Source: a virus
Length of the DNA: 32,520 nt
Direction: 5' to 3' (one strand)
Virus record (IMG/VR): IMGVR_UViG_3300036845_000230
Location: 1 to 32,520 of that record
Positions 1,691-31,715 of the stretch are shown in pieces. Position numbers and translations under genes: made by a program. The notes beneath the pieces are model-generated. The model was not told where the DNA came from. It worked only from the letters and a program-made list of their open reading frames with translations, and searched no databases. Position 1 is the stretch's first letter. Each line of letters opens with the position of its first letter.

Positions 1691-1702
1691 GTCGTTCCCC
1701 TT

Positions 1703-2416
1703 CTAAGGCGTTCCCGCCATTGGACCCATCTCTTGCAAGATGGAGTAATCGTAGACCATCTCAGTGTGTGCTGGTTTCCAACGTTCAAGCAAGCACTCTA
1801 TCGGGCTATTGAGTATGATCTTCAAATGCGGGTGAACCCCGCATTGGCTGTAGAGTGTGCCGCAACGAAACCATTCCAGAACCGCCTGATCAGCATTCAC
1901 ATACCAATAATAGCGATTTTCTGGCGGACCAATGTACCAGCGATAAAGCCCGGTATCGTCATACTCATATCTGGTGTCACCACATTCACTGACACCGCAC
2001 ATGAACGGTGCCCATTCCGAAATCTTCAAATTATAGCCGGTCAGATTACTGATTTCTTCAAAGAACGCACGGCTTTGTCCGCCAAGCAAAGTCATGTACA
2101 TGACAAGCATGTTCTGGCGTTCAGCAATCGTCGTAGCTGCCGGGAAGCATGGGTCAGGCAAACCCCAATTCCGTTCCCAGTCTGGCAATAGTTCTACTGT
2201 CTTGCGCGGGTCACTTTCTGTTTCCAATAGATCAGCCGCACGCCCGTCCACGTATCCCCAATATTCGGCAAGACCTTGCACCGTCATGAACAAGATGCCG
2301 CCCGGTGAACGCGGCCACGCTTGGCCTTGCGGCAATAGCCCCATCATCGCATGCGTGTAATCATCCCCACTGCGACGGACGTGAATATCAATTGGAGGAA
2401 GCTGGAGTTGCGTCAT
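1703..2416 (-). CDS. Baseplate protein, Mu gp48-like (YmfQ/DUF2313 family)
   Basis: This 237-residue protein has the family signature at its N-terminus: DYTHAMMGLLPQGQAWPR, followed by LAEYWGYVDGRAADLLETES and DPRKTVELLPDWERNWGLPD. In Mu and P2-like phages this family (P2 gpI / Mu gp48 / YmfQ) builds the baseplate wedge tip that connects to the tail fibres. It begins with an ATGA overlap with the gp47-like gene and is followed by the tail fibre gene, exactly the expected order. The C-terminal half is Cys- and Trp-rich (CGVSECGDTRYEY, then GTLYSQCGVHPHLKII), also typical of the family. Length fits the family, and nothing indicates truncation. Confidence 0.92.
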   Translation of the reverse strand: MTQLQLPPIDIHVRRSGDDYTHAMMGLLPQGQAWPRSPGGILFMTVQGLAEYWGYVDGRAADLLETESDPRKTVELLPDWERNWGLPDPCFPAATTIAERQNMLVMYMTLLGGQSRAFFEEISNLTGYNLKISEWAPFMCGVSECGDTRYEYDDTGLYRWYIGPPENRYYWYVNADQAVLEWFRCGTLYSQCGVHPHLKIILNSPIECLLERWKPAHTEMVYDYSILQEMGPMAGTP

Positions 2417-6918: not shown

Positions 6919-7477
6919 TCAACGCTCCCGCTTTTAACGCCTGTTGCGCAAATTGATTTGGATTTTGGGATAGTATGCCTTGCACCTGAGCCTTCAAGAA
7001 GCCAGAGGCTTGGATCAACTGCGCATAGGTGTTCTGCGCACCCGCTGTCGGCTTGATGCCGTACTCCACAAACGACATATCGAAAACGCAATAGCCGCCC
7101 AAGTGTTCTTCTTCAGTGATGCTGTACCGATTGCAAAGAACGTACAACGGCGGCAGCGTAGGCAATTGTAGAATTCCAGGTAAGCCATTATCGAGCACAC
7201 TGATCAAGTTGTCTCGAGGAACTCGATAGTCCCGTTGGAAAAGCGGCTGATTGCTGTCGAATGGATACGCTATGCAATAGCCGCGAATGCTGAACTCCAT
7301 GGCACGACGACCCATAGGCTCAGAATACGGCAGATCACGCTTAGGAAATTGATGCGTGACCACATGCGTCCCGCTCTCACGACGTGTAGACTCGCAATGA
7401 AACTGCATGCCACGAAACATCGCAGGCAATAGCTGATCCCGCCATTTCGTATTTGGAATGTCTAGGATTGTGCTCAT
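6788..7477 (-). CDS. Mu gp43-like protein, DNA circulation N-terminal domain (short)
   Basis: The first about 110 residues carry the DNA_circ_N / Mu gp43 signature: WRDQLLPAMFRGMQFHCEST, SGTHVVTHQFPKRDLPYSEP and GRRAMEFSIRGYC. The family acts in the tail tip or baseplate of Mu-like phages. This product is only 229 residues, about half the usual length, and its last 43 residues (after KAGALNA) are Arg/Pro/Ser-rich and overlap the start of the next gene, so that tail may carry little function. It starts at a TGATG junction with the tape-measure gene. The two adjacent reading frames together equal one normal gp43, which suggests a split gene. Confidence 0.88.
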   Translation of the reverse strand: MSTILDIPNTKWRDQLLPAMFRGMQFHCESTRRESGTHVVTHQFPKRDLPYSEPMGRRAMEFSIRGYCIAYPFDSNQPLFQRDYRVPRDNLISVLDNGLPGILQLPTLPPLYVLCNRYSITEEEHLGGYCVFDMSFVEYGIKPTAGAQNTYAQLIQASGFLKAQVQGILSQNPNQFAQQALKAGALNATAGRNRSLQSRPTSMQPTDRLHPGARSAGRASPRRIGGPNR

Positions 7478-12800: not shown

Positions 12801-13403
12801 CTTGATGGCATTGAATTGATCTTCACGCTTAACCGCTGAAGCAAATTTGCGCTGAAATTCATTGGCAATATCTGGCCGGATTTGATTGCGCAATTCCTCG
12901 AACATCTTGCTGCCGGTAATTCGCATTGCCTCAGCATGCGCCTCACCGATCTGCGCAATCATCCGCGCACCTTTTTCTCCTTCAATACCGGCGCGCGACA
13001 ACTGATCCAAGATATTTACGGCTCGAGAATAACTGATACCTGCCGCTTCAGCCCAACGAGAAGTTTCCCGAATGCCAGTGCCGAATTCTGCCATGCCCTT
13101 CGAGGCATTGTAGAACATGAAGCTGAGACCGGCAGCTTTGACCGCAGCACCACCGATATGCTGCGACATCCCTTCAAAGGATTTCTGCACACCGCGCAGT
13201 TCAATTCCCAAATTCTTAGTGAACTCACCGAGGATAGAAGTATGCCGACGCGTTGCCTCCATGAACCCACGATTAGACCGCTGAAGTTCGTTCAGCTCAC
13301 GCTGCAATCGCTGAAGGCCAGCCATCGCATCGTCTTGCAAGTCAACTTGCAAACGAAGCTGTTCAAACTGCGGTGATGATGGGGTTGGAGTGCGCGTCGG
13401 CAT
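9879..13403 (-). CDS. Tape-measure protein with lysozyme, hydrolase-like and M15-like domains
   Basis: This 1174-residue protein directly follows the tail chaperone frameshift product, the standard place for the tape measure (Mu gp42). The ATG at 13403 has a GAGGGA site and overlaps the upstream stop (TAATG). Domains in order: coiled-coil helices about 10-350; linkers with long glycine runs about 468-535; a phage-tail-lysozyme-like domain about 555-690 with candidate acid E592 (AIAESGL); an alpha/beta-hydrolase-like segment about 740-840 with GFSKG at 799-803 (putative nucleophile S801); a peptidase M15-like segment about 920-1035 with RHMHGGAAD (H960, D967) and AIHIGGG (H1023), the expected zinc ligands; then a tail shared with the next gene. 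The coiled coil sets tail length and the enzymes would open the cell wall on DNA entry. Domain names are by motif reading only. Confidence 0.88.
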   Translation of the reverse strand: MPTRTPTPSSPQFEQLRLQVDLQDDAMAGLQRLQRELNELQRSNRGFMEATRRHTSILGEFTKNLGIELRGVQKSFEGMSQHIGGAAVKAAGLSFMFYNASKGMAEFGTGIRETSRWAEAAGISYSRAVNILDQLSRAGIEGEKGARMIAQIGEAHAEAMRITGSKMFEELRNQIRPDIANEFQRKFASAVKREDQFNAIKEMFEGIETEVRRLNSTRSETYIQEQIALGKRTAARILGVDVEIDHVKSLHELDKKRSDLLETREKNAKAIAEDWDNTMANMKQIKDFFLSDAFRPDRGPARMIHDMRVGTEATYKILQSMESILSGHQLFEYFSMTPSFKAGMDFFNKMIDWARGTGGGKRATVGGHDLGPLVGQPWTPPEEQGNDDLANKLGAGSLSPLKPGGRSLGWQPQRFSGGGEETGQWFGGRLSTNIEDHRRAVTEDTEDRTTNSKLLKQVNEKLFQILNPPGGAGGRGGGGVGLGGGAAGLAAAFRSGGGGGGGGGRGFTSDSGGGSGVRGGGGATGGGGARGTSGDTGYKGSIPQPSAATKGGRYPNIENVKASAKDQLIKEGYTAEQAEIGANALVGQAIAESGLRSQYHDQGKKSGAAGGYVPSIYGADHSRGQAMMKWMKDNNLDPNDTSNQARWMAHEAQQYKGVVAELKKEHPDQGRVADVLTTDFEAPKTRYSPATQAERRRNAQIAAGVGAPKEIQQPTTTTPPATGPQAAAPSPDADKGAGDKVMIGFRGVGGAFDEAAFNAHARALGYRPVVMKSDNIGENNAQASEFIKNNPNSKIALYGFSKGTQAVSTFVQNNPNVKVDKVVTVAPFRSYNLDHLKKYDWDNFPDFSSGKIGPEGSGFKIQTEEHAKKAQQEVVTRLYGQKPEETQQTQQAKKQGDTPAPAEQTGPGVYQGQAGHQRPEAINPRLHGQLGAISGETGVGFDIFSGGEQEHGWHSGSGRHMHGGAADTTMYVMENGKKRYLQADNAEDRAKIQQVIASARRHGVTGIGIGPGYMEGHEGTAIHIGGGHEAHWGAGNSGANSPKWTVDAFEHPDKFPATFAGDTGAKSEPSKLPPTPSHPDYSGHAGAEMDMHKIRTTIDKTSSADKAQIETTGHLKADVIAPPNVKIQMAGTGAFKKTELVRHLTGGAGKIVHPHSDQGAPAPREQVHTAGGPT

Positions 13404-17332: not shown

Positions 17333-17700
17333 TTCAATTTCTCCTTCATCAGTATTGCCATCCTGGAACAAAGCTGCTCATACAAGTGTGGCCGCAGGAT
17401 TGGCTTAGTCAAACTCAAGACGCGCGGCGTATGCAGCTTTCGAACGATTGCTTCCCTCACCTTACGGCGCTGGCGCATTACTCCACCAGTGCTGGCTTTC
17501 TTAGCTGAAGGCGTATGCTGCACAATAATCGTGTAGACGCTTTTTTCTTCACGTGTCGTATTCGGTTGGGTGCGACGCATGTCATTCGTCTGCCATTCCG
17601 TTAACTCAGTGCTCATGTCTTCCGGAAAGGCAGTCAGCCGTTGCTCCATATCAGTTATCGTCGCAAGCGCATCCTTGGCGTCTACGAAAACTTCAATCAC
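17323..17700 (-). CDS. Putative HK97 gp10-like head-tail protein
   Basis: This 125-residue protein probably starts with GTG at 17700, which overlaps the TGA of the second capsid gene (GTGA), so translation would be coupled. No clear ribosome-binding site is seen. An N-terminal helix (DAKDALATITDMEQRLTAF), a beta pair (EEKSVYTIIVQHTPS), a basic stretch (GVMRQRRKVREAIVRKLH) and the ending RPHLYEQLCSRMAILMKEKL are reminiscent of HK97 gp10 / minor tail connector proteins, which often end in a helix like this. It overlaps the next gene by ten bases. Function is by position and shape only. Confidence 0.6.
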   Translation of the reverse strand: MIEVFVDAKDALATITDMEQRLTAFPEDMSTELTEWQTNDMRRTQPNTTREEKSVYTIIVQHTPSAKKASTGGVMRQRRKVREAIVRKLHTPRVLSLTKPILRPHLYEQLCSRMAILMKEKLKWR

Positions 17701-18773
17701 CACTGCACCGCATTCATGAACGACGTGTGCGGCGCACGCATGCCCCATGTCGCACGCACCGTCATCTTAAGCGCAAAGGCATCGATCTGATACATAGATT
17801 TCACGGGAACCGCACCGCCGATATTCTGCGGCGTAGTATCTTCCATGTGCAATGCAGCCACTTTAGAAACAGTGAACTGCGGATCGCCGATGGCGAACGC
17901 CAAGCTTTCCGGCTCGATGGCTACAACTGAACCGACTGGCAAGCCAACACTGGCCGCAACAGGCAGAACATCAGTCGCAGGTGTCACGCTGAATTGTCCA
18001 CCGGCCCAGAACCGAATAGCGATTGCCTGCGCCGGAGCAGCCACGAAAAAGATCTTACGACCACCTCCACGAGTGGCAACATCCTGAACCAAGACGCCGA
18101 GATCTTGCGCGCAACTATCAAAGCCCAATGTCGAAGTAGACGTCGGCGGCAACGCAGTTAGACCATTGAGCAAACCTGCGGGTTGCACACCTGATGCTGG
18201 AGCAGCAGAAAACATGGCGGCATCAATTGCGATACCAGCAGCTTCTGTCAAAAGCTGACGGACGACAGCTTCGATATTTGATGCTTCCGTGAGTTCCCGT
18301 GTCATGGTCACAATACAAGCGACCTTGGTCGGCCGCAGCGTGGCACCAGGATAAAGGTTCATCTGGCGCACCGGAATGGGCTGTCCTTCTCCAACCCAAG
18401 TGCCAGCATCCGCCGCATGGACAGAACGACCAGGAACAGTCACGCTCGCTACATTGCCAAGGTCCACGCGCAATGCGCCAGCCAATGCCAAGCGCCACGC
18501 CACTGACATTGCAACAATATCTTCAACGGATTGTTCAATGGCAGTGTGCGTGAGTGGACCAGCCCAAGCCGCATCTGCAGTCGTGGCTTGCGTAGTAGCA
18601 GCACGCTCCAAGAGCGCAAGCGTCAAGCGATCATCCGGATATCGGGCCTTGCAAATTTCCACAGGATCTACACCCTCAATATAGCCTTTGAGGACTGCAG
18701 TCGCTTGCCGCCATACGTTGTCCATCCGGACGTTATCCAAACGAACATTCCAATCTTTACCGAGTTGTTTCAT
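17697..18773 (-). CDS. Second HK97-fold major capsid protein paralogue
   Basis: This 358-residue protein is clearly homologous to the capsid part of the protease-capsid gene at 22765-25311. Shared blocks in the same order are GTWVGEGQPIPVRQ (GSFVGEGQPIPVRQ there), TMTRELTEASNIEAVVRQLL (TWTREMDEYSIPAIEGLLRQ), ALHMEDTTPQNIGG (TLHMEDTTPQDITG) and PVKSMYQIDAFALKM (PVKSMWQTDSLALRM), ending in AVQW against GVQW. It has only a short N-terminal helix instead of the long delta-domain, and no protease. The ATG at 18773 has an AAAGG site seven bases upstream. It lies between the connector and gp10-like genes, away from the first capsid gene. It could form vertices (as T4 gp24 does beside gp23) or be a co-assembling minor subunit; that is inference. 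Confidence 0.9.
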   Translation of the reverse strand: MKQLGKDWNVRLDNVRMDNVWRQATAVLKGYIEGVDPVEICKARYPDDRLTLALLERAATTQATTADAAWAGPLTHTAIEQSVEDIVAMSVAWRLALAGALRVDLGNVASVTVPGRSVHAADAGTWVGEGQPIPVRQMNLYPGATLRPTKVACIVTMTRELTEASNIEAVVRQLLTEAAGIAIDAAMFSAAPASGVQPAGLLNGLTALPPTSTSTLGFDSCAQDLGVLVQDVATRGGGRKIFFVAAPAQAIAIRFWAGGQFSVTPATDVLPVAASVGLPVGSVVAIEPESLAFAIGDPQFTVSKVAALHMEDTTPQNIGGAVPVKSMYQIDAFALKMTVRATWGMRAPHTSFMNAVQW

Positions 18774-18785
18774 GGCCAAGCCTTT

Positions 18786-19490
18786 CTAGACCCAATGACG
18801 AATGTACTTGTTCAGCAACAACTGCACGGTGGTCCATGTTGCTGGCAATCCCAATGTGGGAAACATATTTGGACCGTAGTAGCCTATGCGACTTTCTTTG
18901 TGCGTCAACAGTCGCACGCCATAGGAACCTGGACTACGGATCCATGACATGTAGCTTTCACGGAGTAACGCCTCCACAGCAAACTTCAACGTTCCTGGCG
19001 CACCATCCGGCAGTTCATAACCGCCGCCATACTGAACGTCAATCGTGCCAAGCCATGAACCGAATTGATTGGGCATGTAAAGCGTGCCGGTTTCCTCTTC
19101 CAAAATCCAATAGCCTTGTCCACTTCCGGGCGCGCTACCTGGACCGGAAATCAAATATGGTAGAATATCCTCTCCATTACACGAGATGCTGGAAATATCA
19201 TCCAACTTCACCGGCCAACGAGACAAGTATAGTCGACCCGTAGTCACTATGCTGGCGTCTTCCAATTGCCAAAAGCTTTCTTCAACTTCTTCGAAGGCGA
19301 AAACTCGATTGCACAATTTGGCAATTGTCTCAGACAGGTTCGTAATGAGCTCTTGGATCAACGCATCCCATTGCGTGTTGGTGTCTGGTATCGCAAACTT
19401 CATTTTCATTTCTTCAAGCGACACCAAATCATACGGACCAGCCGGAGCAGTGGCAGTTGCCGGAGTAGTCACATTTAAGATTTGTTGCAT
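18786..19490 (-). CDS. Head-tail connector protein (HK97 gp6-like)
   Basis: This 234-residue protein belongs to the gp6-like connector group that forms a ring under the portal. The N-terminal part (LVSLEEMKMKFAIPDTNTQW, LIQELITNLSETIAKLCNR) is the helical gp6 core. A longer C-terminal extension with a beta region (TGRLYLSRWPVKLDDISSIS, GTIDVQYGGGYELPDGAPG) matches the longer members that continue with AVEALLRESY. The ATG has a strong AGGAG site. It lies between the collagen-like gene and the second capsid gene. Fit to the family is good on helix pattern and position. Confidence 0.85.
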   Translation of the reverse strand: MQQILNVTTPATATAPAGPYDLVSLEEMKMKFAIPDTNTQWDALIQELITNLSETIAKLCNRVFAFEEVEESFWQLEDASIVTTGRLYLSRWPVKLDDISSISCNGEDILPYLISGPGSAPGSGQGYWILEEETGTLYMPNQFGSWLGTIDVQYGGGYELPDGAPGTLKFAVEALLRESYMSWIRSPGSYGVRLLTHKESRIGYYGPNMFPTLGLPATWTTVQLLLNKYIRHWV

Positions 19491-19493
19491 GAC

Positions 19494-20948
19494 CTAACTC
19501 CTAGTCTCTTCTACGAACTGCTCAAACATGGTGCGCAAGTTCATCTTTGGACCCATCGTACCATCGCTCAGCACAGTCATAAGTTCGTAACCCTCAATCT
19601 TGACACCAGCCCAATGCGGCGCGGCTTTGCCTTGTAACCCTTGCACACCACGTTCGCCCGGTACTCCTTTTTCACCCTTCTTGCCTACCGGGCCAGATTG
19701 CCATCCTGGACCGGGAACTTCGCCTGGATTATCTCTTCGGGCAACAAACCAGCCGTGGTCGAGAGTGACAACATCAAGCGCCTTATAAGTTTCCTTCGGA
19801 TCATATGTGCCACGAATATTGAATGCTGCTCCGTCCTTTCCTGCGGCTGCGATGCATCGCCAATCACCAGACGTACTAGGCTCCTTGGCAGTATCACGCG
19901 TAGCCTGCCAGCTTGCTCCGGAGTGAGTGACGACATCACCTTCATAAAAGATGCGATCTGTCCATGGCACAATTGCGCTGATAGTTCCGCGCGGGCCGCA
20001 CTCACCGCGGTCTCCTCGCTCGCCCTTCTCACCCGGTAAACCCCTTTCGCCAATCGCGCCATTGCGGCCAGCGTCACCAGGATCTCCCTTTTCTCCTCGT
20101 TCACCACGCTCACCTTTCATTCCAACTAATCCGTCTAAGCCGTTGCGGCCCGGCTCTCCGAGATCGCCTTTTTCTCCACGCTCACCGCGCTCTCCGCGGT
20201 CGCCTTTTTCGCCGCGCGCTCCTTCAGGACCATTGCGGCCCGGCTCACCTGCTTCTCCACGAAGACCCTGTAACCCACCGGATCCCGGAGGGCCGATGGG
20301 GCCGCTTGGTCCAGCAGGTCCTGGCTCACCGCGCTCACCCCTTGGCCCTTGCTGACCGGGTTCACCTGGATCCCCTTTAACGCCTTCGACACCCGGAGGA
20401 CCCTGCGGACCGACCGACCCGGAGTCGCCGCGATCACCCTTTGTCCCTGCAAGACCAGCGACACCGTTGCTCCCCGGCTCACCGGCTTCACCTCTGTCAC
20501 CTTTCGGGCCGGATATCCCGGGAGTTCCTTGCACGCCGTCGTTTCCAGGAGGGCCGATTGGCCCTTGCTGACCGGGCTCGCCGGGATCACCCTTTTCCCC
20601 ACGTTCGCCTGGGAAGCCCTTTTCGCCCTGATCGCCTTTCTCTCCATTACTGCCGTTGCGTCCTGGCTCACCGGCCTCACCATTTTTCATCTCCAAGGCA
20701 CGTCTAGTAATTTGATCACTGAGAGCATTCGTTCTCTCTGCGTATTCCGCGCGGATCAGAGCAACAATTTCCCCATACTTGGCTTCGATCAATTGAAGCC
20801 TACGGGCATATTCTTGCTCTAGCCGTTCCTCGATCTTAGCAAGAGCATCTGCTCCAGCATCAAGGAGTGCGTCCGGAAATATACCGTTGCTGTCGGAGTC
20901 TTCCGGCTCGGTTGATAAGTGTTCTTGAATATGCGACGCGTCGTGCAT
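19494..20948 (-). CDS. Collagen-like fibre protein inside the head gene cluster
   Basis: This 484-residue protein starts with ATG at 20948, behind a GGGAG site, and overlaps the end of the portal gene by 89 bases. Residues about 36-88 are a charged amphipathic helix (KIEERLEQEYARRLQLIEAK), a likely trimerising coiled coil. Residues 90-323 are about 78 uninterrupted Gly-X-Y triplets, rich in charged GEK, GDR and GEP triplets but poor in Pro at position Y. Then come two short Trp/Tyr modules of CBM5/12-like pattern (YEGDVVTHSGASWQAT, YKALDVVTLDHGWFVA), a second short collagen stretch and a C-terminal segment (SDGTMGPKMNLRTMFEQFVE). A trimeric fibre on the capsid or neck with carbohydrate-binding tips is plausible. 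No catalytic residues are seen. Confidence 0.85.
   Translation of the reverse strand: MHDASHIQEHLSTEPEDSDSNGIFPDALLDAGADALAKIEERLEQEYARRLQLIEAKYGEIVALIRAEYAERTNALSDQITRRALEMKNGEAGEPGRNGSNGEKGDQGEKGFPGERGEKGDPGEPGQQGPIGPPGNDGVQGTPGISGPKGDRGEAGEPGSNGVAGLAGTKGDRGDSGSVGPQGPPGVEGVKGDPGEPGQQGPRGERGEPGPAGPSGPIGPPGSGGLQGLRGEAGEPGRNGPEGARGEKGDRGERGERGEKGDLGEPGRNGLDGLVGMKGERGERGEKGDPGDAGRNGAIGERGLPGEKGERGDRGECGPRGTISAIVPWTDRIFYEGDVVTHSGASWQATRDTAKEPSTSGDWRCIAAAGKDGAAFNIRGTYDPKETYKALDVVTLDHGWFVARRDNPGEVPGPGWQSGPVGKKGEKGVPGERGVQGLQGKAAPHWAGVKIEGYELMTVLSDGTMGPKMNLRTMFEQFVEETRS
19980..20681 (-). repeat. Collagen Gly-X-Y triplet repeat, about 78 units
   Basis: An uninterrupted nine-base periodicity of glycine codons encodes the collagen domain of the gene above. 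The triplets are degenerate at DNA level, yet short exact strings recur, such as the codons for GEAGEP followed by GRN or GSN (four near-copies), so the domain probably grew by internal duplication. Confidence 0.9.
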
Positions 20949-22314
20949 CTTTATTGCTCCCTTGCGGTTCCGGCTTCGCTGGTGCCGGTGGCTGCGGCGG
21001 AGCGGCTGGCGATGCAGGTATTTTCCCCGCTGCACTGAGCGGGACTACTTGTTGTTGCACGCGAGGCTCGTCACCAAATTTCACAGAGTCAAGATCTTCC
21101 GCGTTGCGTGCTTCATTAGGAGAATAGATGCCACCCTGCACACCGCGCGCAAGACCCTCGATACGATCCTTAAAGTCAGATCGCAAAAGTGATGTTGTAC
21201 TGAACTCGACATATTCGTCGGGTTGCCCTTCCAATCCAAATGCTTGATCGAAGGCTTCTTCCACATGATTGAGACAGAAGCCTAATCCAGTAGCGACCCA
21301 TTGTCGCATCATTGTTTCTGTATTTCCGCGCGCGCCTACCGCTGGCAAGCCGACAATCTGCGGTGGAACACGGAAAGCCATCGCGATATCTTGGTCAGAC
21401 AACTTCAGCATTTCTACAAGCTGAGCATCCTTCCAATTTGCGACAGGGATATTCTGTGGCTTAAGACCAGAAGTCAATATCGGCGTGCCACCAACATTGT
21501 TACCTGTTGTCTGTTCTGTCCACCGATCACGCAATGCGCTCACTTGATCTTTATCAAGGTTCATATCCGTGGACAACACAAAGCCCGGCTTGGGCTGCCG
21601 AGCATAGAACAGCATCTGCTGTTCACGAATGGTTGCGCCAGTAATCGTATCCAAATATGCCGCCATCAGCGGCGTCTGGCCAAGCAACGGATTGCGTAGT
21701 TGATCAACATGTAGTTTAATGTGAAGAACATCACGTTGTGGGATTGTCGCTAAAGGACCATAGCGGTTTTCAACAACCCAATTGCCACCGAGCGAATAAA
21801 AGACTTCACCATCACCATCAATCAATGCTCGGCAATAACGATTATCCATCAAATGAATTTCGTCGATTTCAAATCGTGCATTGCGCCTACAATACACATA
21901 GGCATTGCCTTGAAGATAAAGCTGACGCACCGAGTTCAACAAGAAATCAGACATAGTTTGATAATCATTGGGATAACGCAATAGTCGTGACAAAGCTGAA
22001 TTCGTAACTCTTATACGGCCGCCTTTGCCATTGGCCCGCCAATGATCTCCAGGACACATGGCCACTGTCTGGCTGTACGCCCCGACACATGCTTCAATGA
22101 TTGCCAGATTGGCGCTTTGCAGCCACGGAGTATATCCGTTCTGCCACCAATTCAATGAGTTGCCGACATCTCCAGGCAACCATCCATGCGTGACAGGCAG
22201 ATACCACGGACCGGGACGATACTGTCCTTCCGATCCGCCGCTGCCACTCGGCGCGTAACCAGCGGCCGTTTTTAAGACGGCCGCTGCACGTTTCATTCGG
22301 TCAGTGAAGCCCAT
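20860..22314 (-). CDS. Portal protein (HK97 family)
   Basis: This 484-residue portal protein forms the dodecameric gate through which DNA enters and leaves the head. Matching blocks of the HK97 portal family are NLAIIEACVGAYSQTVAMCP near residue 70, LRYPNDYQTMSDFLLNSVRQ, YLQGNAYVYCRRN, VLHIKLHVDQLRNPLLGQTP, and LVEMLKLSDQDIAMAFRVPP, followed by VGARGNTETMMRQW. The C-terminus after about residue 430 is a Pro-rich tail ending in basic residues, overlapping the collagen-like gene. It lies after the capsid gene in transcription order rather than before it, which is less usual for HK97-type heads. Confidence 0.95.
   Translation of the reverse strand: MGFTDRMKRAAAVLKTAAGYAPSGSGGSEGQYRPGPWYLPVTHGWLPGDVGNSLNWWQNGYTPWLQSANLAIIEACVGAYSQTVAMCPGDHWRANGKGGRIRVTNSALSRLLRYPNDYQTMSDFLLNSVRQLYLQGNAYVYCRRNARFEIDEIHLMDNRYCRALIDGDGEVFYSLGGNWVVENRYGPLATIPQRDVLHIKLHVDQLRNPLLGQTPLMAAYLDTITGATIREQQMLFYARQPKPGFVLSTDMNLDKDQVSALRDRWTEQTTGNNVGGTPILTSGLKPQNIPVANWKDAQLVEMLKLSDQDIAMAFRVPPQIVGLPAVGARGNTETMMRQWVATGLGFCLNHVEEAFDQAFGLEGQPDEYVEFSTTSLLRSDFKDRIEGLARGVQGGIYSPNEARNAEDLDSVKFGDEPRVQQQVVPLSAAGKIPASPAAPPQPPAPAKPEPQGSNKDARRVAYSRTLINRAGRLRQQRYISGRTP
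22261..22285 (-). other. Perfect 9-bp hairpin in the 5' part of the portal gene
   Basis: AGCGGCCGT and ACGGCCGCT pair perfectly around a seven-base loop, 30 to 54 bases after the portal start codon. It encodes the ordinary residues AAAVLKTAA, so it may be chance from a GC-rich alanine stretch, but a stem this strong near the start could slow translation. Confidence 0.4.
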
Positions 22315-22319
22315 CTAGG

Positions 22320-22688
22320 CTACGCCTTCGCTGAAGTATGACCGTGTTGCGGATTGTGCTGCCCACCACCACCACTATGCGTCGATGCAGTGGATTGGCG
22401 CGTAGCGTATCCGCCTCTGTTCTCGTGATCAGCTGCCATATTTCGATGAACGCCAAACCCGACATTCGGATCTTCCATCGAACCGTCCTTTGCGAGCTCA
22501 GGGTGTTCCCCAAGCTTGAGGAGATCACACTCCTCCTGCGTCGGTGTAGGCGTGCCCTTCATCGCTTCGATTTGCTTTTCGCGCGCCTGCTTGTCTTTGG
22601 CATCGGATGCGAGTTGCTTCCTGGCGTTTGCCGATGACTCCTTTTCTCGAGCCGATGTTTCCCGAGCCGCTGTTTCTCTATCTGCCAT
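22320..22688 (-). CDS. Small charged coiled-coil protein, unknown function
   Basis: This 122-residue hypothetical protein is between the capsid and portal genes. The ATG at 22688 has an AGGAG site seven bases upstream. The N-terminal 42 residues are a highly charged helix (MADRETAARETSAREKESSA). The middle carries PTPTQEECDLLKLGEHPELA, a motif I have seen in small phage head-region proteins without assigned function. The C-terminal 35 residues are Gly/His/Ser-rich and disordered. Its place could suit a scaffolding aid or a head-decorating protein, but nothing in the sequence proves either. Confidence 0.7.
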   Translation of the reverse strand: MADRETAARETSAREKESSANARKQLASDAKDKQAREKQIEAMKGTPTPTQEECDLLKLGEHPELAKDGSMEDPNVGFGVHRNMAADHENRGGYATRQSTASTHSGGGGQHNPQHGHTSAKA

Positions 22689-22707
22689 TTCAAACTCCTG
22701 TGTTAAA

Positions 22708-22731
22708 GAGGGCGAATGGGTTATCGCCCTC
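22708..22731 (-). terminator. Terminator-like hairpin after the capsid gene
   Basis: GAGGGCGA and TCGCCCTC form a perfect 8-bp GC-rich stem with an eight-base loop, 34 bases after the capsid stop. On the minus strand it is followed by TTTAAC, so the T run is only three bases. It would be a weak, leaky terminator or a 3' stabiliser letting capsid messenger exceed downstream messenger. Confidence 0.55.
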
Positions 22732-22764
22732 CTAGTAATAACCCACAACTAGCTCAAGGGTTTC

Positions 22765-25311
22765 TTAGCCCCACTGAACGCCAGTCATCCAGGACACGAC
22801 CGGACGACGCAGGATCCAGTTCATTCGCATGATCATGCGCAAAGCCAGCGAGTCTGTTTGCCACATGGACTTGACTGGCACGGCCGGCGACGGAGTACCA
22901 CCCGTGATATCCTGCGGGGTCGTGTCTTCCATATGCAGAGTAGCCTGATCACTGATTTCCATGCGCGGCCCTTCGGCGCCTGCCGTGACAAAGTCAGCGG
23001 CATCCACCATGATGACCATGCCTGGAGGCACGTTTGCCGACTCGATCAAATCGGCCTTGAGCAGCCGTCCAGCATCCATCATGACAATGAACGGGAACAA
23101 CGGCGTCGCCGCCGCCGGAGGCTGGATCATGCTGATCGCCAATCCTTGGATTGGGTTGATCAGAATGGTCGGACGCCTTACATTGCCGTTGGTCAAGTTG
23201 AGCAAGCCGCCATAGAGCGCCTTGTAGTCAGCAACGAAGTTCGGGAAGCCAACGCCAGCCGCTGACGGCGTCAGTCCAGTCTGGTACGAGCGCAAACCCG
23301 GAGGTGCGATAGCTGTTGCCACATTGGCGCCGATCAGCACCGCATCCATGGCAATCGCCGTATCCTCGAGGATTGCCTGCCGCAACAGACCCTCGATCGC
23401 CGGGATGGAATACTCGTCCATCTCGCGAGTCCAGGTCGTGATGACAGCCATCTTCTTTGGCGTCAAGGTCTGCGAAGCGAATGCGCCTTGCCGCACCGGA
23501 ATGGGCTGACCTTCACCGACGAAGGAGCCAGAGATAGACGGTGTCAGATTACGAGTCGGGATGACGATCCGCCCGTTGGCGCCGAAGGTGAGTGCGAGCC
23601 CCTTGGCCGCAAGCTGCGGATAAATGCTGACCGGGAGCAGGACTTGCATGAAGTCTGCCCAGATGGTCCGCACCAGTTCCGCGGCCCATCCAGTCACCGT
23701 TGTCATCGCCGGCGCCGATGTCGCCTTGAGGATCATATCGCACATGACCCGCGTGACTTCATCATCACCGTAGATCCGCTGACGAATGGCATCGATGCTT
23801 TGGCCTTCGGACTTGGACTTGCCCATGACCAGAGCCGCGCGGAACAGATAGTCCAGCGGTTCTGCCTTCTTCTTCGGAAGCACCAGACCGGGCGGTAGTT
23901 TGATCAAGTCCTTGCCCGACCGTGCCAATGCCGCTGGATCCTCCGCACGCTCACCATTGCGTGCTTCGGCTGCCTGAAGGCTCTTCAGGTTCCGCTGCGC
24001 ATTTTCGATCTTGGCGGTGAAGTCCTCCGTAAGAACCATCTGCTCTTCGGTTGGATCCTCGCCATAGCTTTCCAGATGCTTGTCCAGATTGTCCTGGAGC
24101 GACAGAACCTTCTTCTGTGCTTCCTGGATGCGTTGAGAGAGCAACATGGATTTTCCTTTCCCCTCTCCTGGTTTAATCTCGGCATGCTCGCCGGGTTTCT
24201 TCTCGCTCACCGCCCTCCGCTTGTTGGCATCCTCGCCACGGACAGCCGGGGTAAAACTCCTCTGCACGATGCTTCTGCTGGCATCCTCGCCAAACACCAT
24301 GCGCAAGGTTTCTCGACTAACGCCTAAGCTCTTCGCCACGGCCAAGGCGTTAGGATTGGCCGGTACCGCTACGACGCTGCACTCCATGAGTTCCTGTTCA
24401 GTGTATCGAACACCGAAGTTGTCCGTGTCTTCCAAAGGTTCATACTTTATCGGCTTGAACCCCACGGATGTTGCTCGTAGAATATCAGCGTCGATCAGGT
24501 TGCGGATTTCATCAATGCGATCGCTCGTTCCCCTCGGCGCCAGCACCAGCTTGGCGCGGAGATCCGTAGGACCAGCTTTGATATCTTCCCATTTTCCAAT
24601 GGGAAACGAACTCTGGTGATTGAAAAGTGCAATGGGATTTTTCTTGAACTGCGTAATCTTCCAACCAGCCGGTTCAACAATATCACCAAATCTATCTGGC
24701 GTGGCGTCGGACAAGATGAATTCCATACCAGAACCTTCGGTCGATCTGGTCTTGTGCATGACCAGCCCGGCAGCTTTGTCATCACCGTTGTCTTGGGCAT
24801 CATCCCAAGCCATCTGGCAAGCTTCCTCGGCATCGTCATCCGCCATGTCGTCACATTCGTCCATGCAACGATCCATGAAGTCTTCATGGCTTTCACCATC
24901 GTCCGGATCTGGAACATCCGCCTTCTGCACCACCTCCTTGCGCAAGAAGGCGATGACTGTCTTATCGGTCGGCGGACCTTCCTTGCCGATCTGGGTTTTC
25001 CAAGCCGCAGTAATTCGCAGCTTGATCCGCGACAACTGCGCCTCGTTATATTCCTTATTCTTGGTATTAATCAAATACCAGGAACAACGAATATCGTCCG
25101 GCGTATCGAGCGGATAGCGCTTCTTGCCATCCGAACGATAACCTGGATCGGCGAATTCACTCATCGTAGCCTCCTTCTTGTTGTCGCGCCATATCTGCAG
25201 GCAGGCCGCGACAGCTTGATCTTGATCACGCTTACCATCGCCCATCATTTCAGGTACACAACGACCCATGAAATCGTCTTGGCTTTCGCCCTTATGTGGC
25301 TTCATCGGCAT
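22765..25311 (-). CDS. Prohead protease fused to HK97-type major capsid protein
   Basis: One 848-residue frame runs through both functions. Start at 25311 has a GGAAGGAAG site and overlaps the previous gene by 20 bases. Residues 8-42 and 138-170 carry a repeated GESxxDFMxRC motif with a later AC or AxxAC pair. Residues 60-110 resemble DUF6582 (KKRYPLDTPDDI). Residues about 183-345 are an HK97-type protease: GDIVEPAGWKI, LFNHQSSFPIGKW (H232), LRATSVGFKPI (S282), VVAVPANPNA. After a charged linker (355-388) comes a coiled-coil delta-domain-like region (389-450) and the capsid fold to the end (GEGQPIPVRQ, ITTWTREMDEY, HMEDTTPQD). Internal starts with good sites exist at 25164 and 24147. The first releases protease and capsid from the N-terminal motif; the second makes capsid alone (460 residues). 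Confidence 0.93.
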   Translation of the reverse strand: MPMKPHKGESQDDFMGRCVPEMMGDGKRDQDQAVAACLQIWRDNKKEATMSEFADPGYRSDGKKRYPLDTPDDIRCSWYLINTKNKEYNEAQLSRIKLRITAAWKTQIGKEGPPTDKTVIAFLRKEVVQKADVPDPDDGESHEDFMDRCMDECDDMADDDAEEACQMAWDDAQDNGDDKAAGLVMHKTRSTEGSGMEFILSDATPDRFGDIVEPAGWKITQFKKNPIALFNHQSSFPIGKWEDIKAGPTDLRAKLVLAPRGTSDRIDEIRNLIDADILRATSVGFKPIKYEPLEDTDNFGVRYTEQELMECSVVAVPANPNALAVAKSLGVSRETLRMVFGEDASRSIVQRSFTPAVRGEDANKRRAVSEKKPGEHAEIKPGEGKGKSMLLSQRIQEAQKKVLSLQDNLDKHLESYGEDPTEEQMVLTEDFTAKIENAQRNLKSLQAAEARNGERAEDPAALARSGKDLIKLPPGLVLPKKKAEPLDYLFRAALVMGKSKSEGQSIDAIRQRIYGDDEVTRVMCDMILKATSAPAMTTVTGWAAELVRTIWADFMQVLLPVSIYPQLAAKGLALTFGANGRIVIPTRNLTPSISGSFVGEGQPIPVRQGAFASQTLTPKKMAVITTWTREMDEYSIPAIEGLLRQAILEDTAIAMDAVLIGANVATAIAPPGLRSYQTGLTPSAAGVGFPNFVADYKALYGGLLNLTNGNVRRPTILINPIQGLAISMIQPPAAATPLFPFIVMMDAGRLLKADLIESANVPPGMVIMVDAADFVTAGAEGPRMEISDQATLHMEDTTPQDITGGTPSPAVPVKSMWQTDSLALRMIMRMNWILRRPVVSWMTGVQWG
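24145..24159 (-). promoter_or_regulatory. Internal ribosome-binding site and ATG for capsid alone
   Basis: AAAGGA lies six bases before an in-frame ATG at 24147, preceded by more purine-rich sequence (AGGAGAGGGG). The site falls exactly at the boundary between the protease linker and the delta-domain-like helix that starts the capsid part. This could let capsid protein be made in excess of protease, as the internal start of lambda Nu3 does for scaffold. Confidence 0.6.
25162..25176 (-). promoter_or_regulatory. Perfect internal Shine-Dalgarno before an in-frame ATG
   Basis: AAGGAGG, five bases before an in-frame ATG at 25164 (protein begins MSEFADPGYR), is the strongest ribosome-binding site near this gene's beginning and better than that of the upstream start at 25311. 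A shorter 799-residue fusion lacking the first Cys motif is therefore likely made as well or instead. Confidence 0.6.
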
Positions 25312-25555
25312 TTGTGCTTCCTTCCGGCTGTGACCAGTCCTTGAACTTGTAGCGCACTTGCCAGCCGGACGGCATGTCGCCGACCGTGGTGATTGGCAAT
25401 GTGACGTTCTTGCCGTTAGTCTCATTGACGAGCCAGCCGATAACCTGATGTGGCTCTGTCGCCTCATTGTTTGGATCGAAAGCCTCATAGCCGACTACCG
25501 CTGGCATTAGGCCGATCGTCGTAACAGCTTTAGGCTTTGCGGCTTTCTTTGCCAT
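25292..25555 (-). CDS. Small hypothetical protein with basic N-terminus
   Basis: This 87-residue protein starts with ATG at 25555 behind a GAGGGA site that includes the stop of the fibre gene. The basic N-terminus (MAKKAAKPKAV) is followed by a beta-type pattern, HQVIGWLVNETNGKNVTLPI and GWQVRYKFKDWSQPEG, then an acidic C-terminal end. It overlaps the protease-capsid gene start by 20 bases. I do not recognise a family; position beside the fibre and capsid suggests a virion protein. Confidence 0.7.
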   Translation of the reverse strand: MAKKAAKPKAVTTIGLMPAVVGYEAFDPNNEATEPHQVIGWLVNETNGKNVTLPITTVGDMPSGWQVRYKFKDWSQPEGSTNADEAT

Positions 25556-25565
25556 GTAAGATCCC

Positions 25566-28500
25566 TCAATAGTTATAATATTCTTCGATGTAGACGCCGC
25601 CGATACCACCAGCCGCGCCGCCTGCCAAAGCTGCGCCTGCTGCGCCGAGTACGCCGGTGATCGTCCCTGGAGCACTGACGATGATTTCAGCACAAGCTCC
25701 CGCACCGCCACCCGGACCACCAGGACCGGCCGATGCCGCAGCGTAGGAACCGCCACCACCGCCCGCGCCAGTTCCAGGCTTGCCCGCCGTTCCACTACCT
25801 TGCCCGCCACCACCGCCGCCACCACCAAACATATTGACACCACCACTGCCGCCCGCGCTGTACTGCGTATAAGTGCCGGTGCCTAGACCATCACCACCGC
25901 TAGCTTGAAACACGATATTCCAATTCGTCGGCAGAGTACCAACGGTGACCGCACCACCTACGCCGGGAGCAACGCTGATACCAGCCTTGCCACCACCGAG
26001 CGTCAATGCGAGCACGCCACCGACACTGAACGTCAGGTCGGCCGCATTATTTCCTCCTTGCCCGTTATTCCCAGAACCACCAGCGCCACTCGCTGCTGTC
26101 CTAATCCGGATCCATCTAACTGTATTGCCGCCAGCATTAGTCGGCGTATAGGTGAACGCGCCAGCCGCAGTGATTTTCTGCGTCGTCGGCGGCTGAGCAA
26201 CGATCGGACCCGTTGATGTTCCAGGAGGACCTTGCGGGCCGACTGGACCAATCTGCAGCAATATCGCGACCATATTAACGGCCGCACCAGCATTCGCCGT
26301 ACTCAAGAACGTTGTGTTGGTGCTCTGTACCCCTTGAACTTGGATAGTATCCGTCGTACCGTTGCAGTAGATCAACGCGCTCGCTGTCTGCGCACCAGTG
26401 TAGGCCGATCCACCAGTGACAAATCTAATGCTCTGTGACTCTGCAGTAGAGAGCGAACCGTTCTTCAGGATTGCAACGCCAATCCAACCGTTGGCGACCC
26501 AAGCCGCACCTATCGATGCGCTGATAGCGTAGACGCCAGCGACCTTCGGCGTATAGATACCTGTTGAAGTATTGAAGGTTCCACCCTGAACATCAGTAAC
26601 GATGGTGTCGTACTTGAGAGTGTTCCAGGCTCCCGCAGTCACGCCTGTCTGATTGGCATTCAGTGCAACTTCAAGAGCAATCTGTGCAGGCGTGCCAACA
26701 CTTGATCCGGGCGTACCCTGAATGCCTTGTGGACCTTGTGGACCCTGCGGTCCACTCTGCAACAGCGTCACCACCATGTTAGTCACAGCGGTAGCTGTGG
26801 TGCTGCTGGAATTATAGATAATCGTTCCAGCCGGAAAAGCTTGACACTGAATGGTATCTGTCGTGCCGTTACAATAAATCAGCGCCGACATACTCACTGG
26901 CTCAGCGTTCGGCGTCGTAAAGTTGGCCACCGCGCGATAAGCCTGTGACTCTGGTCCCTTCAAATTGCCATTCTTCAAAATGGCAATGCCGGTCCAACCA
27001 CCATTAATTAGACCTGTCGCGAAACCTGCACTAACCGCATAGAGGCCCGCTTGTGTCGGAGTGAATATTCCAGTTGCTGTGTTATAACCATTTTGAAGAT
27101 CAGTGATCTTCGTGTCGTACTTGACTGCTTGCCATGCGTTCGCAGTAACCGTTAGATTGTTGGCCAGACCAACTTCAAGAACAACATTCGCTGGAGTGGC
27201 TCCGCCGCCAGCAGATTTTACGAATGCCGTAGTTGCTAGCTTAGTAGAATTATCCGTGCTCGCCTGTGTCGGCGCCGTTGGATTTCCAGTCAGTGCTGGC
27301 GAAGCCAACGGTGCGAAGATCGCATCTATGTTATTCCATGCGCTGTTTTCACGCGCGTAGTTATGCCCATCAGTCGGCGCTTCCGGGACTGGACCCGCTG
27401 GTCCTGTTGGTCCTGCCGGTCCTGCTGGACCCGTCGCTCCAGGAGTTCCAGGCGCGCCAGTGGCTCCAGCTACGCCTTGGACACCCTGAGGTCCTGGAAC
27501 ACCAGCAAGATTGATATTCCAATCAGCATGCGTCCCAGAACCAAGGACAGTATCGACGTTGACTGTCAAGTTGCTGCCACTATAGGCGGTGACCTGACCT
27601 TCCATCCAGGTGTTGGCAGTCCCGGCGCTTGCCGCACGCACACGAGCACCGACAGAATAAGCCAGACCCGTTTGTGTTGAAAAAATACAAGAGCCAATTC
27701 CAATCGTCAGAGAAGTCGTGCTGCTCGCCGTGTAACCCGCGCCCGGATTTCCCTGCGGCCCTGCCGGTCCTGTCGCACCAGTATTTCCTGGAACACCTTG
27801 AATGCCCTGCGGTCCCGCTGGACCACTGTCCGTCTTATAGACTTTGAAAAAGCTGGTCGATCCTGTAACCGTGGCTCCTGCACCATAACCCCAGACTTCC
27901 AGATAATCATTGACTGCAAGAATGAGAACACATTGAACGTTGACGTAGGACTTACCATTATCAGCAGAGCCGGTGAAAGTAGTGCCGTTCTTATAAAGAG
28001 CCAATCCACCGACACCGGCTCCAGCAGCAACGTTGACAAAAGTATCAACCAAATACGTGCCAGCAACTTTACAAACCCAACGATAGAGTGTTGGATTAAA
28101 CCCTGCCTGCGTATCTGTGATAATGCTGTTGAACGGCAGCTTGTTCCAAGAAGCAGGCAGACCATAGTTTGTTGTCGACGTGGTGCTGAGCACTTGCGGC
28201 ATGCCCGGACCAGCCGTGCCACCGCCTCCACCTCCGCCACCAGCTTGCGTCGTATCTACAATACTGAGCTCAGTCCAAATGCCGGTAGGATCACAGCAAT
28301 AATAGCCAATCGTCTTGTTCGATATCGTTCTGTTCGCTGCACCGAGCAATATAAGGTTCGTGCCGTTCTGAAGAACAATGTTTCCACCAGAAGGCTCGAA
28401 CGTGACTTGCTTGGTGATGCCGACATTTACGACTTCCGGCGGATCTACGCTTGGATCTATTAGCTGCGGTCCAGGCGGAGGCCCGAAAGAACTGATCGTA

Positions 28501-28631
28501 CCATTGCCGGTGATGATAATCTTGTTCGTATCAACACTATCATCAGGAGGCGCCAGATCAACCTCAGGCGCGCATGGCAACGTTAGACTAGGCGCGTCTC
28601 CCTGCGCGCATTGCCATGGCATTATGCCCAA
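25566..28631 (-). CDS. Large fibre protein with collagen, C1q-like and Gly-rich domains
   Basis: This 1021-residue protein starts with TTG at 28631. An AAAGGAG site lies ten bases upstream, a TGA sits just upstream in frame, and the next ATG is too far from the site. Domains in order: N-terminal beta region 1-130; C1q/TNF-like beta sandwich about 152-265; collagen 268-298; a beta module 300-376; collagen 378-414; a fibre linker 421-472 (DGHNYARENSAWNN, STKLATTAFV); two further C1q-like domains about 482-625 and 649-793, each with ILKNG and the identical ALIYCNGTTDTIQ; short collagen pieces between them; and a polyglycine C-terminal domain 820-1021 ending GGVYIEEYYNY, as in several tail-fibre tips. 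It is a likely trimeric receptor-binding or decoration fibre. Its location among packaging and head genes is unusual. Confidence 0.88.
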   Translation of the reverse strand: MGIMPWQCAQGDAPSLTLPCAPEVDLAPPDDSVDTNKIIITGNGTISSFGPPPGPQLIDPSVDPPEVVNVGITKQVTFEPSGGNIVLQNGTNLILLGAANRTISNKTIGYYCCDPTGIWTELSIVDTTQAGGGGGGGGTAGPGMPQVLSTTSTTNYGLPASWNKLPFNSIITDTQAGFNPTLYRWVCKVAGTYLVDTFVNVAAGAGVGGLALYKNGTTFTGSADNGKSYVNVQCVLILAVNDYLEVWGYGAGATVTGSTSFFKVYKTDSGPAGPQGIQGVPGNTGATGPAGPQGNPGAGYTASSTTSLTIGIGSCIFSTQTGLAYSVGARVRAASAGTANTWMEGQVTAYSGSNLTVNVDTVLGSGTHADWNINLAGVPGPQGVQGVAGATGAPGTPGATGPAGPAGPTGPAGPVPEAPTDGHNYARENSAWNNIDAIFAPLASPALTGNPTAPTQASTDNSTKLATTAFVKSAGGGATPANVVLEVGLANNLTVTANAWQAVKYDTKITDLQNGYNTATGIFTPTQAGLYAVSAGFATGLINGGWTGIAILKNGNLKGPESQAYRAVANFTTPNAEPVSMSALIYCNGTTDTIQCQAFPAGTIIYNSSSTTATAVTNMVVTLLQSGPQGPQGPQGIQGTPGSSVGTPAQIALEVALNANQTGVTAGAWNTLKYDTIVTDVQGGTFNTSTGIYTPKVAGVYAISASIGAAWVANGWIGVAILKNGSLSTAESQSIRFVTGGSAYTGAQTASALIYCNGTTDTIQVQGVQSTNTTFLSTANAGAAVNMVAILLQIGPVGPQGPPGTSTGPIVAQPPTTQKITAAGAFTYTPTNAGGNTVRWIRIRTAASGAGGSGNNGQGGNNAADLTFSVGGVLALTLGGGKAGISVAPGVGGAVTVGTLPTNWNIVFQASGGDGLGTGTYTQYSAGGSGGVNMFGGGGGGGGQGSGTAGKPGTGAGGGGGSYAAASAGPGGPGGGAGACAEIIVSAPGTITGVLGAAGAALAGGAAGGIGGVYIEEYYNY

Positions 28632-30113: not shown

Positions 30114-31715
30114 TCAGCCGATCATGGCTTCAACATCAATTTCCTGTGCTCTCAACGGTGCTACGCCCATTGCCATCGCGAGCGCCACCATGCCGTCTAT
30201 TCGACCTGAAGATTTATTCTTGGACAAACGTCGATTGGCGCTATCCTTTCCCTCCACAACGCTGTTCGCCGCGCACATTTTCAACACTGGATGATTGCCG
30301 TGCGCCATCTTATCATCTAGTAAAATCTGTTCTAGGTCCCGCAACGCCGGTGACATGGATTTCTTGCCCTGCCCGAACTCAACAAATTTCTCATTGAACT
30401 CCTGCTCATTAAATCCATTTTCCAACAGCCACGGTTTCAAATGCTTCATGTTCCATGAGTCAAACGCCAGCTTGCGAATATCATAGGTGTCGAACACTTG
30501 CCGCAGCACCACTGCGATATACTGGTAGCTGACGCTGCGGCCGGGCGTGGTTTGAAGGAAACCTTGCTGCGCCCATAGATCGTAAGGTACTCTGTCATTC
30601 CGTGCCTTCTCGGACAGTCCCTCTTCAGGCAACCAGAATGTAGGATGCACCGACCACTTGCCATGAACGAAACCAACCAGCACTAAAGCCGTGAGATCCC
30701 TGACTTCACTTAAGTCCAACCCTGCATAAACCGCAACCTTCCCCAGATCATCGGGCTCGTCCCCATTGCGATCCCACACGCCATGGGAAATGAATGGAGA
30801 TACCGCTTCGACACGCTGATTGAGCACCAGATTACGATATTCTTGCTCTCGTGCTGGCATGCGCTTGGCATCCTGAGCCATCGCCATAGCTTCTCGAGGA
30901 TTGAGGAAATCCCCGAAAGCCGGATTGGCCAGCCGCACCGCCTCTTCACTGAACGGGTCCAGATCCATCGGCGCGCTATACACTCGGCATATCACGCGCG
31001 GATCCGCTTCAGTCAGAGCATCATCGATCAGCACACTCAACAAGTCTGCATCCGTCGGCGCCTGCGTACTGATGATCAGGCTCAGCGGGTTTTCCTGCGC
31101 GCCTGTCGCCGTCTCCAAAGCATCATAGAGTGCGCTGCGTGGCCCGCGTACTTGCCCGAGCTCATCATGAACTACGAATACCGGTGACAAGCCGTAAGCC
31201 GTGGTGACCTCTGCACTCAACGCTCTATAAGTGCTGCGATAAGCCGTGAAGAACAATTGCTTGTGCGTTTCACGGATAATCACTTGGTTTTGAAGGACCG
31301 GTGCCATCCTGATCATCTTTGCAGCAAGACTAAAGATGATCGCAGCCTGCTCCCGGCTTTGTGCTGCGGAGTAAAGGTTCGAATTCGGTATAGCCTTCGG
31401 CCCGCAGAGATGCACCAGAAGCAAGCAGGCACTCAGCGCCGTCTTTCCGTTCTTACGTGCAAAGCTGAGGATAGCACGTCTGGTGCCAGATGGATTATCA
31501 TAAATCCGTGTGATCTCTTCCTTCTGCCATCTTGCCAATCGAAACGGCTCGCCGATCAAACGGCCTTCCGGCACGAAAAGGGTATGTTCAATCCAACCTA
31601 TGATCTGCTTCGCCGTAACTTCATCAGGCGGCAGAGTCATCCATTTCGACGGCCGTCGGACCTCGGGCGAAAGTGTTGGCTTCGTCGATTTCTTTCTTTT
31701 GCTTTCGGGGCTCAT
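30114..31715 (-). CDS. terL: Terminase large subunit
   Basis: This 533-residue packaging motor subunit has an N-terminal ATPase and a C-terminal nuclease. The ATPase has a Walker A-like motif SFARKNGKTA (84-93), a Walker B motif VFVVHDE (D184, E185) and the coupling motif LIISTQAP (213-220). The nuclease has three acidic sites of RNase H type: AGLDLS (D334), AFDSWN (D419) and RIDGMVALAMAMG (D507). This arrangement and the length fit the HK97-type terminase_1 family. It overlaps the small subunit by 92 bases. The ATG at 31715 has only a weak ribosome-binding site, so coupling with the upstream gene is likely. Confidence 0.96.
   Translation of the reverse strand: MSPESKRKKSTKPTLSPEVRRPSKWMTLPPDEVTAKQIIGWIEHTLFVPEGRLIGEPFRLARWQKEEITRIYDNPSGTRRAILSFARKNGKTALSACLLLVHLCGPKAIPNSNLYSAAQSREQAAIIFSLAAKMIRMAPVLQNQVIIRETHKQLFFTAYRSTYRALSAEVTTAYGLSPVFVVHDELGQVRGPRSALYDALETATGAQENPLSLIISTQAPTDADLLSVLIDDALTEADPRVICRVYSAPMDLDPFSEEAVRLANPAFGDFLNPREAMAMAQDAKRMPAREQEYRNLVLNQRVEAVSPFISHGVWDRNGDEPDDLGKVAVYAGLDLSEVRDLTALVLVGFVHGKWSVHPTFWLPEEGLSEKARNDRVPYDLWAQQGFLQTTPGRSVSYQYIAVVLRQVFDTYDIRKLAFDSWNMKHLKPWLLENGFNEQEFNEKFVEFGQGKKSMSPALRDLEQILLDDKMAHGNHPVLKMCAANSVVEGKDSANRRLSKNKSSGRIDGMVALAMAMGVAPLRAQEIDVEAMIG

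Follow-up and report, generated by a model that had tools for sequence, protein, structure and literature searches.

The window – the whole 32,520-nucleotide stretch of viral DNA analyzed here – carries on its minus strand a gene that joins a prohead protease, a delta (scaffold) domain, and an HK97-type capsid in one protein (Table 1). A preliminary description had read the gene as a single uninterrupted frame for a Cys-motif region, a protease, and a capsid, and this reading was borne out: the frame runs for 848 amino acids without a stop and comprises, in order, a Cys-motif/DUF6582 region, the S78 prohead protease, a linker, the delta helices, and the HK97-type capsid. An additional ATG is present at 25488 in the mechanically defined frame; the conserved start (MPMKPHKG) is at 25311.

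Profile matches extend over most of the frame. The major head protein family phrog_617 covers residues 173-846 (E 2e-70), the TIGR01554 major capsid model matches at 38.7 bits (cut-off 27.5), and the Pfam Phage_capsid match (PF05065, residues 577-788) falls just below its cut-off (24.1 versus 24.2). With both S78 and capsid domains recognized, the gene is an S78 prohead protease–HK97 capsid fusion of the phrog_617 kind; protease–capsid fusions per se are an already known kind (phrog_617; PAJU2). Against NF045541, the NCBIfam model for prohead protease/major capsid fusions, the protein scores 32.5 bits with a cut-off of 525; it works like NF045541 proteins, yet is no member of that model. Within the protease, H232 and S282 are among the invariant positions of the relatives' alignment and might be catalytic. 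The model of the fused capsid (mean pLDDT 54.9) was usable for the delta helices alone, which are predicted to span residues 3-26 and 34-66 of the putative internal product (10-residue pLDDT means of 78-89 up to residue 60). The Cys-motif occurs twice at the fusion N-terminus (P0001 residues 8-42 and 138-172), and it is also found in separate upstream places of relatives (L005 5781-5882, L037 7157-7258, and L017 4883-5023).

Table 1. Positions in the window of the fusion gene, its domains and start sites, and other head genes.
Feature	Position	Strand	Basis
Protease-delta-capsid fusion gene, full-length product 848 aa	22765..25311	minus	Open frame; S78, capsid, and DUF6582 matches; phrog_617; conserved MPMKPHKG start
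Shine-Dalgarno-like GGAAGGAA of fusion start 25311	25318..25325	minus	Sequence; duplex energy -6.3
AAGGAGG, 5 nt upstream of in-frame ATG 25164 (residue 50)	25170..25176	minus	Sequence; energy -12.2; not conserved
DUF6582 match (residues 50-106; score under the Pfam cut-off), an optional insert separating two Cys-motif repeats	24994..25164	minus	Missing in many relatives
Peptidase_S78 prohead protease domain (residues 205-323)	24343..24699	minus	PF04586, 31 bits, cut-off 21
Linker, poorly conserved (residues 324-388), ends in the internal ribosome-binding site	24148..24342	minus	Alignment
Internal Shine-Dalgarno AAAGGA, 6 nt before ATG 24147	24154..24159	minus	Sequence; family-wide Shine-Dalgarno excess
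Predicted internally initiated product: free pro-capsid (delta + capsid), 460 aa	22765..24147	minus	Start codon in 122/122 loci
Delta (scaffold) domain, helical hairpin (residues 389-454)	23950..24147	minus	Predicted helices
HK97-type capsid core (residues 486-847)	22771..23856	minus	Pfam, phrog_617, TIGR01554, cap2 identity
Portal protein gene	20860..22314	minus	Context
Head-tail adaptor gene, directly upstream of cap2	18786..19490	minus	phrog_442
cap2, second capsid gene, 358 aa, no protease, no delta domain	17697..18773	minus	Adjoins head-tail adaptor gene; own clade
Terminase large subunit gene	30114..31715	minus	Context

The genes around the fusion, for terminase, portal, head-tail adaptor, head closure, tail sheath, and tube, are those that a contractile-tailed phage ordinarily has for its head and tail. 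Two long ORFs of a collagen-like/C1q-like tail-fibre type lie within the head cluster (19494-21035 and 25566-28631, minus strand), the first of which overlaps the portal gene at its end. Two minus-strand ORFs of 1174 and 800 amino acids (9879-13403 and 7477-9879) lie downstream of the tail genes and have no PHROG match.

The window also encodes a second capsid protein, cap2, which is 36% identical to fusion residues 486-847 and exceeds the Pfam Phage_capsid cut-off (32.4 bits versus 24.2). Its AF2 model (pLDDT 76.7) aligns with HK97 prohead I (8fqk_A) at Z 15.5 and rmsd 4.4 over 250 residues, and cap2 is thus predicted to have the HK97 fold. A cap2-type ORF is present in 32 of the 122 fused loci described below (one locus with two). 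It lies 3.5-5.7 kb downstream of the fusion in the close relatives of the window (9 of the 9 with enough sequence, counting the window and the cut locus L033) and upstream in others; of 25 loci with about 10 kb of sequence flanking the fusion on either side, 20 have no cap2 within that range. At L074, two cap2-type ORFs (1051-3176) accompany the fusion, for a total of three capsid genes. A tree was built from 86 capsid domains, hand-chosen from the capsid matches; in it, the 35 cap2 sequences all grouped in a clade of their own (support 99/99), so cap2 is an old paralogue rather than a recent copy. T4 gp24 occupies a special, vertex-type position in its shell; by analogy, the obvious guess is that cap2 sits at a vertex or another special shell position.

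Start codons with ribosome-binding sites in the fusion frame

Two further in-frame ATGs with Shine-Dalgarno (SD) sequences had been pointed out at 25164 (AAGGAGG) and 24147 (AAAGGA), and both are present, with the SD 5 nt and 6 nt upstream, respectively. The second had been placed at the protease/capsid boundary; its actual place is the boundary between the linker and the delta domain, 66 residues on from where the linker begins and thus past the end of the S78 match (residue 323).

Judged within the window, the two sites rank very differently. The SD of 25164 is exceptional, since so low a score is reached by 0.18% of the family's remaining in-frame ATGs. That of 24147 is ordinary: 2.8% of those ATGs score as low, and several other start-like codons of the window frame have better SD scores. 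The case for 24147 therefore rests on conservation and not on the window. The proposal that 25164 is a second start did not hold up in this comparison, as its SD, though perfect, is peculiar to this phage. The ADPGY motif is shared by 14 other loci, but a strong-SD start at the equivalent position is present in none of them; in L003 and L009, ATGs with weak SDs lie 4-5 codons away, and L006, L064, and L073 (3 of the 14) have start candidates of their own near the DUF6582 region. On this basis we ruled out 25164 as part of a conserved system.

A scan of 22700-25700 for sigma-70-type promoters returned three sites, none on the coding strand, and an internal promoter of that type was rejected as the source of free capsid. 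An Rfam search of 17500-25700 gave no match.

A 5' start could be identified in 35 representatives, and in these the fusion and internal starts were compared. The mean SD energy was -8.7 at the 5' start versus -7.2 at the internal one, and the 5' SD was the stronger in 20 of the 35. Since the 5' SD on average matches or exceeds the internal one, the capsid does not become the major product through SD strength alone, and we found no direct support for the internal start setting the capsid-to-protease ratio.

Conservation of the internal start among relatives

Relatives were gathered in three sets: a protein query yielded 37 loci, bacterial genomes contributed 20 (Bradyrhizobium, Sphingomonas, and Ensifer as well as more distant genomes), and an alignment query gave a list of 80 viral loci; these sets partly overlap and together yield 131 different loci, window included. 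Both protease and capsid are present in 122. The remaining nine, which lack one half, were left out: L033, L035, and L036 run into contig ends, L038 has cap2 only, L039 is weak, L056 has the protease only, and L057-L059 are distant. One of the distant loci, L058, encodes protease and capsid as separate frames. At L056, from Bradyrhizobium, an S78 protease frame of the fusion family (9988-10774) has no capsid match downstream.

All 122 loci that hold both halves encode them in one open frame, at identities to the query down to about 41%, and every one of them has a start codon (121 ATG and one GTG, in L048) for the opening residue of the delta domain. The residues directly before this codon are hardly alike, with 14-16% ungapped identity over the last 10-20 linker residues of 64 representatives. 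The linker frame is nevertheless open in 95 of 95 representatives, versus 22.6 expected from base-shuffled linkers; to judge from this comparison, the openness of the linker, and hence the fused frame, is under selection. The internal start site is carried by the Bradyrhizobium, Sphingomonas, and Ensifer prophages and by PAJU2 alike. Across 195 genomes of the genus of the Bradyrhizobium genome that contains L040 (G001), full-length open copies numbered 12, spread over 10 genomes and in part already among the loci, and one further copy had decayed and contained a stop.

SD strength was scored as the energy of base pairing to the 16S rRNA tail, represented by the anti-SD consensus, and compared with a null in which the same eight codons were recoded by random synonymous choice according to the codon usage of each gene. 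Upstream of the internal start, the mean over 95 representatives was -6.34 versus -4.55 after recoding, and none of the 500 recoded sets reached the observed value; the Z of about -10 (-10.6) overstates the independence of these sequences, which are related. The excess held when the loci were clustered below 90, 80, 70, and 60% identity (105, 95, 64, and 31 representatives; Z of -11.8, -10.2, -8.5, and -6.0), and it persisted with a shorter, five-base anti-SD. The 1666 other in-frame ATGs averaged -2.39, and a sample of 400 of them was without SD excess (Z +2.4).

The signal has a defined position. It peaks sharply (means of -6.0 and -5.8) in 10-nt windows beginning 16 to 14 nt upstream of the start codon and lies between -0.3 and -2.7 beyond this peak and the flanks, and purines account for 93-99% of the bases at -12 to -9. 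The region of the internal start is also less structured than that of other ATGs (-10.1 versus -13.5 kcal/mol; 95 versus 570 sites). Taken at the nucleotide level, these patterns indicate that the ribosome-binding site of the internal start is under selection. The gene shares with nested-start morphogenesis genes of the lambda C/Nu3 kind a conserved in-frame internal start whose ribosome-binding site is under selection. A chance origin of the 24147 site, with which the window alone would be compatible, was rejected on the family-wide start-codon and SD evidence.

The preliminary description had suggested comparing internal starts among homologues and had taken loss of the SD in close relatives as an argument against their use. 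The comparison came out in favor of the internal start, with the start codon in 122 of 122 loci and an SD beyond synonymous recoding. On SD loss the outcome was mixed, as 18 of the 95 representatives have a weak internal SD (E above -4), whereas the start codon is never lost.

Related and comparable head genes

An independent, more distant clade of known fusions shares the internal start. PAJU2 and JLK-2012 proteins are about 26% identical to the window fusion, and the GenBank note for the former reads ‘prohead protease fused capsid protein’. Like the window gene, PAJU2-type fusions (phrog_617; NF045541) have an S78-type protease, delta helices, and an HK97 capsid in one frame, with a start codon and an SD at the delta boundary; the window differs in the extra Cys-motif/DUF6582 N-terminus of its gene and in the coexistence of the fusion with a second capsid gene. 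PAJU2, JLK-2012, and RHph_X2_26 all have a methionine with an SD at the same delta boundary. We examined these three together with 80 IMG/VR viral loci (83 in all), of which L165 and L186 are cut by contig ends; SOVA965 and phiKM1 (L135 and L137) were left out of the count. A start codon is present at the delta boundary in 71 of the 71 fused loci (70 ATG and one GTG), and the SD excess over recoding was seen here too (44 representatives, Z -5.5, 0 of 500 recoded sets).

Ten of the 83 loci are split, and in all ten the separate capsid frame starts at the homologous residue (9 ATG and one TTG); in three of these (L173, L176, and L177), what separates the locus from a fusion is an in-frame stop immediately ahead of the capsid frame, where an assembly error is possible, and three others (L187, L188, and L190) are near copies. 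On sequence grounds, the separate capsid genes of the split relatives appear to be natural versions of the predicted inner gene.

That a nested start can yield a protease-carrying and a plain form from one gene is known in principle from lambda C/Nu3, nested genes reportedly described by Shaw and Murialdo in 1980. The lambda system resembles what is proposed for the window gene, in that an in-frame internal start gives a shorter co-terminal product besides the fusion that carries the protease; the inner product of lambda is a scaffold, with the capsid in a separate gene, whereas that of the window would contain scaffold and capsid together. Herpesvirus UL26/UL26.5 likewise provides a protease–scaffold fusion and a co-terminal scaffold from one locus. 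It is unlike the window gene in using a separate nested transcript and no ribosome-binding site and in not including the capsid. The predicted inner product shares its layout with HK97 gp5: genes 4 and 5 of HK97 encode the protease and the delta–capsid precursor, which the pertinent section of PMC8508860 gives as separate genes.

The Gifsy-2/MD8 fusions also place three functions in one gene, with a ClpP-like protease and a Mu-type capsid in place of the S78 protease of the window. The Gifsy-2 capsid gene is read as a tripartite ClpP-scaffold-capsid fusion. All 15 representatives examined for this type, including Gifsy-2 itself (L219; codon 221 of the capsid gene), have a conserved methionine with GAGGA directly following the ClpP-type protease; L228, L229, and L230 were too short and were left out. 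The SD excess over recoding is modest (2 of 300 recoded sets), with GAGGA sitting on conserved Glu codons, and Gifsy-2 is a suggestive, possible third case of a nested start. The section of PMC8508860 that describes MD8-type genes places protease, scaffold, and capsid in one gene and gives no inner start. ClpP-type fusions are counted in 17 (34%) of siphoviral Paracoccus prophages in the relevant passage of PMC6536676, and a passage of PMC3517404 states that the separately encoded capsid protein of Agrobacterium phage 7-7-1 loses its N-terminus, probably by the action of its prohead protease. Our literature search, whose coverage did not extend to the original PAJU2 and Gifsy-2 descriptions, returned no report of an internal start in a protease–capsid fusion.

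A nested-start model and its alternatives

We consider it very likely that the gene is a protease–scaffold–capsid fusion with a nested in-frame second start, from which both the full fusion and a free pro-capsid would be made. The preliminary description had proposed just such an outcome, a fusion and a free capsid from one gene by way of 24147, and the proposal gains support from the start codon in every fused locus, the SD excess, and the ten split relatives whose capsid frames begin at the same residue. These comparisons strongly support initiation at 24147.

Ribosomes starting at 25311 would make the full fusion, whose own delta and capsid domains would bring the protease into the growing procapsid. 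Those starting at 24147 on AAAGGA would make a free precursor of delta and capsid, a form like the HK97 major capsid precursor. By analogy with HK97 and lambda, the two would co-assemble, with the free form supplying shell subunits, and the protease would then remove the delta domain and itself at maturation. Both proteins would be made during infection, and the internal start may affect the protease-to-capsid ratio.

The same gene could instead act as a polyprotein, made only as the full fusion, in which the protease cleaves itself off and releases the capsid, and the conserved methionine would be a structural or cleavage-site residue. Autocatalytic cleavage is what others have proposed, according to a passage of PMC8306868, for the protease-fused capsid of PAJU2; a covalently supplied protease could cut in cis, and both the protease and the delta domain are conserved. 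What self-cleavage leaves unexplained is the excess of SD strength over synonymous recoding at normal spacing, the fact that both non-ATG cases in fused genes are GTG, itself a start codon, and the position at which the capsid frames of split relatives begin. It would also demand one protease for every capsid subunit. Full-length synthesis followed by self-cleavage seems to us distinctly unlikely. The SD and ATG might also be functionless remnants of two genes that fused recently, and the split loci of the PAJU2-like clade attest that fusion and fission do occur. A relic would have decayed, however: the 122 fused members of the window family, at identities down to about 41%, have kept start codon and SD while the linker diverged. 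The notion of an unused remnant is hardly credible.

A different question is whether, where cap2 is present, it forms the bulk of the shell and the fusion gene mainly delivers the protease. Cap2 is predicted to be a delta-less HK97-fold protein of mature length, and it occurs in every close relative with enough downstream sequence. In the 20 loci without cap2 in the flanking 10 kb, however, the fusion is the only capsid gene found nearby, and in the tree the branches of cap2 are longer than those of the fused capsid; such a division of labor strikes us as rather improbable. Returning to the nested start, a broader scheme is conceivable, though we hold it to be doubtful: one head might be built from three HK97-fold chains – the protease-tethered fusion, the pro-capsid from the nested start, and delta-less cap2 at a special place such as the vertices or the portal neighborhood – and nested starts might be general and overlooked in S78 and ClpP fusion phages alike.

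The presence of cap2 raises the question of why an HK97-type head keeps two capsid genes. Fusion phages are annotated with a single protease–capsid protein; if the inner start is used, each such gene would encode two proteins, and a fusion gene could avoid making one protease for every subunit of the shell.
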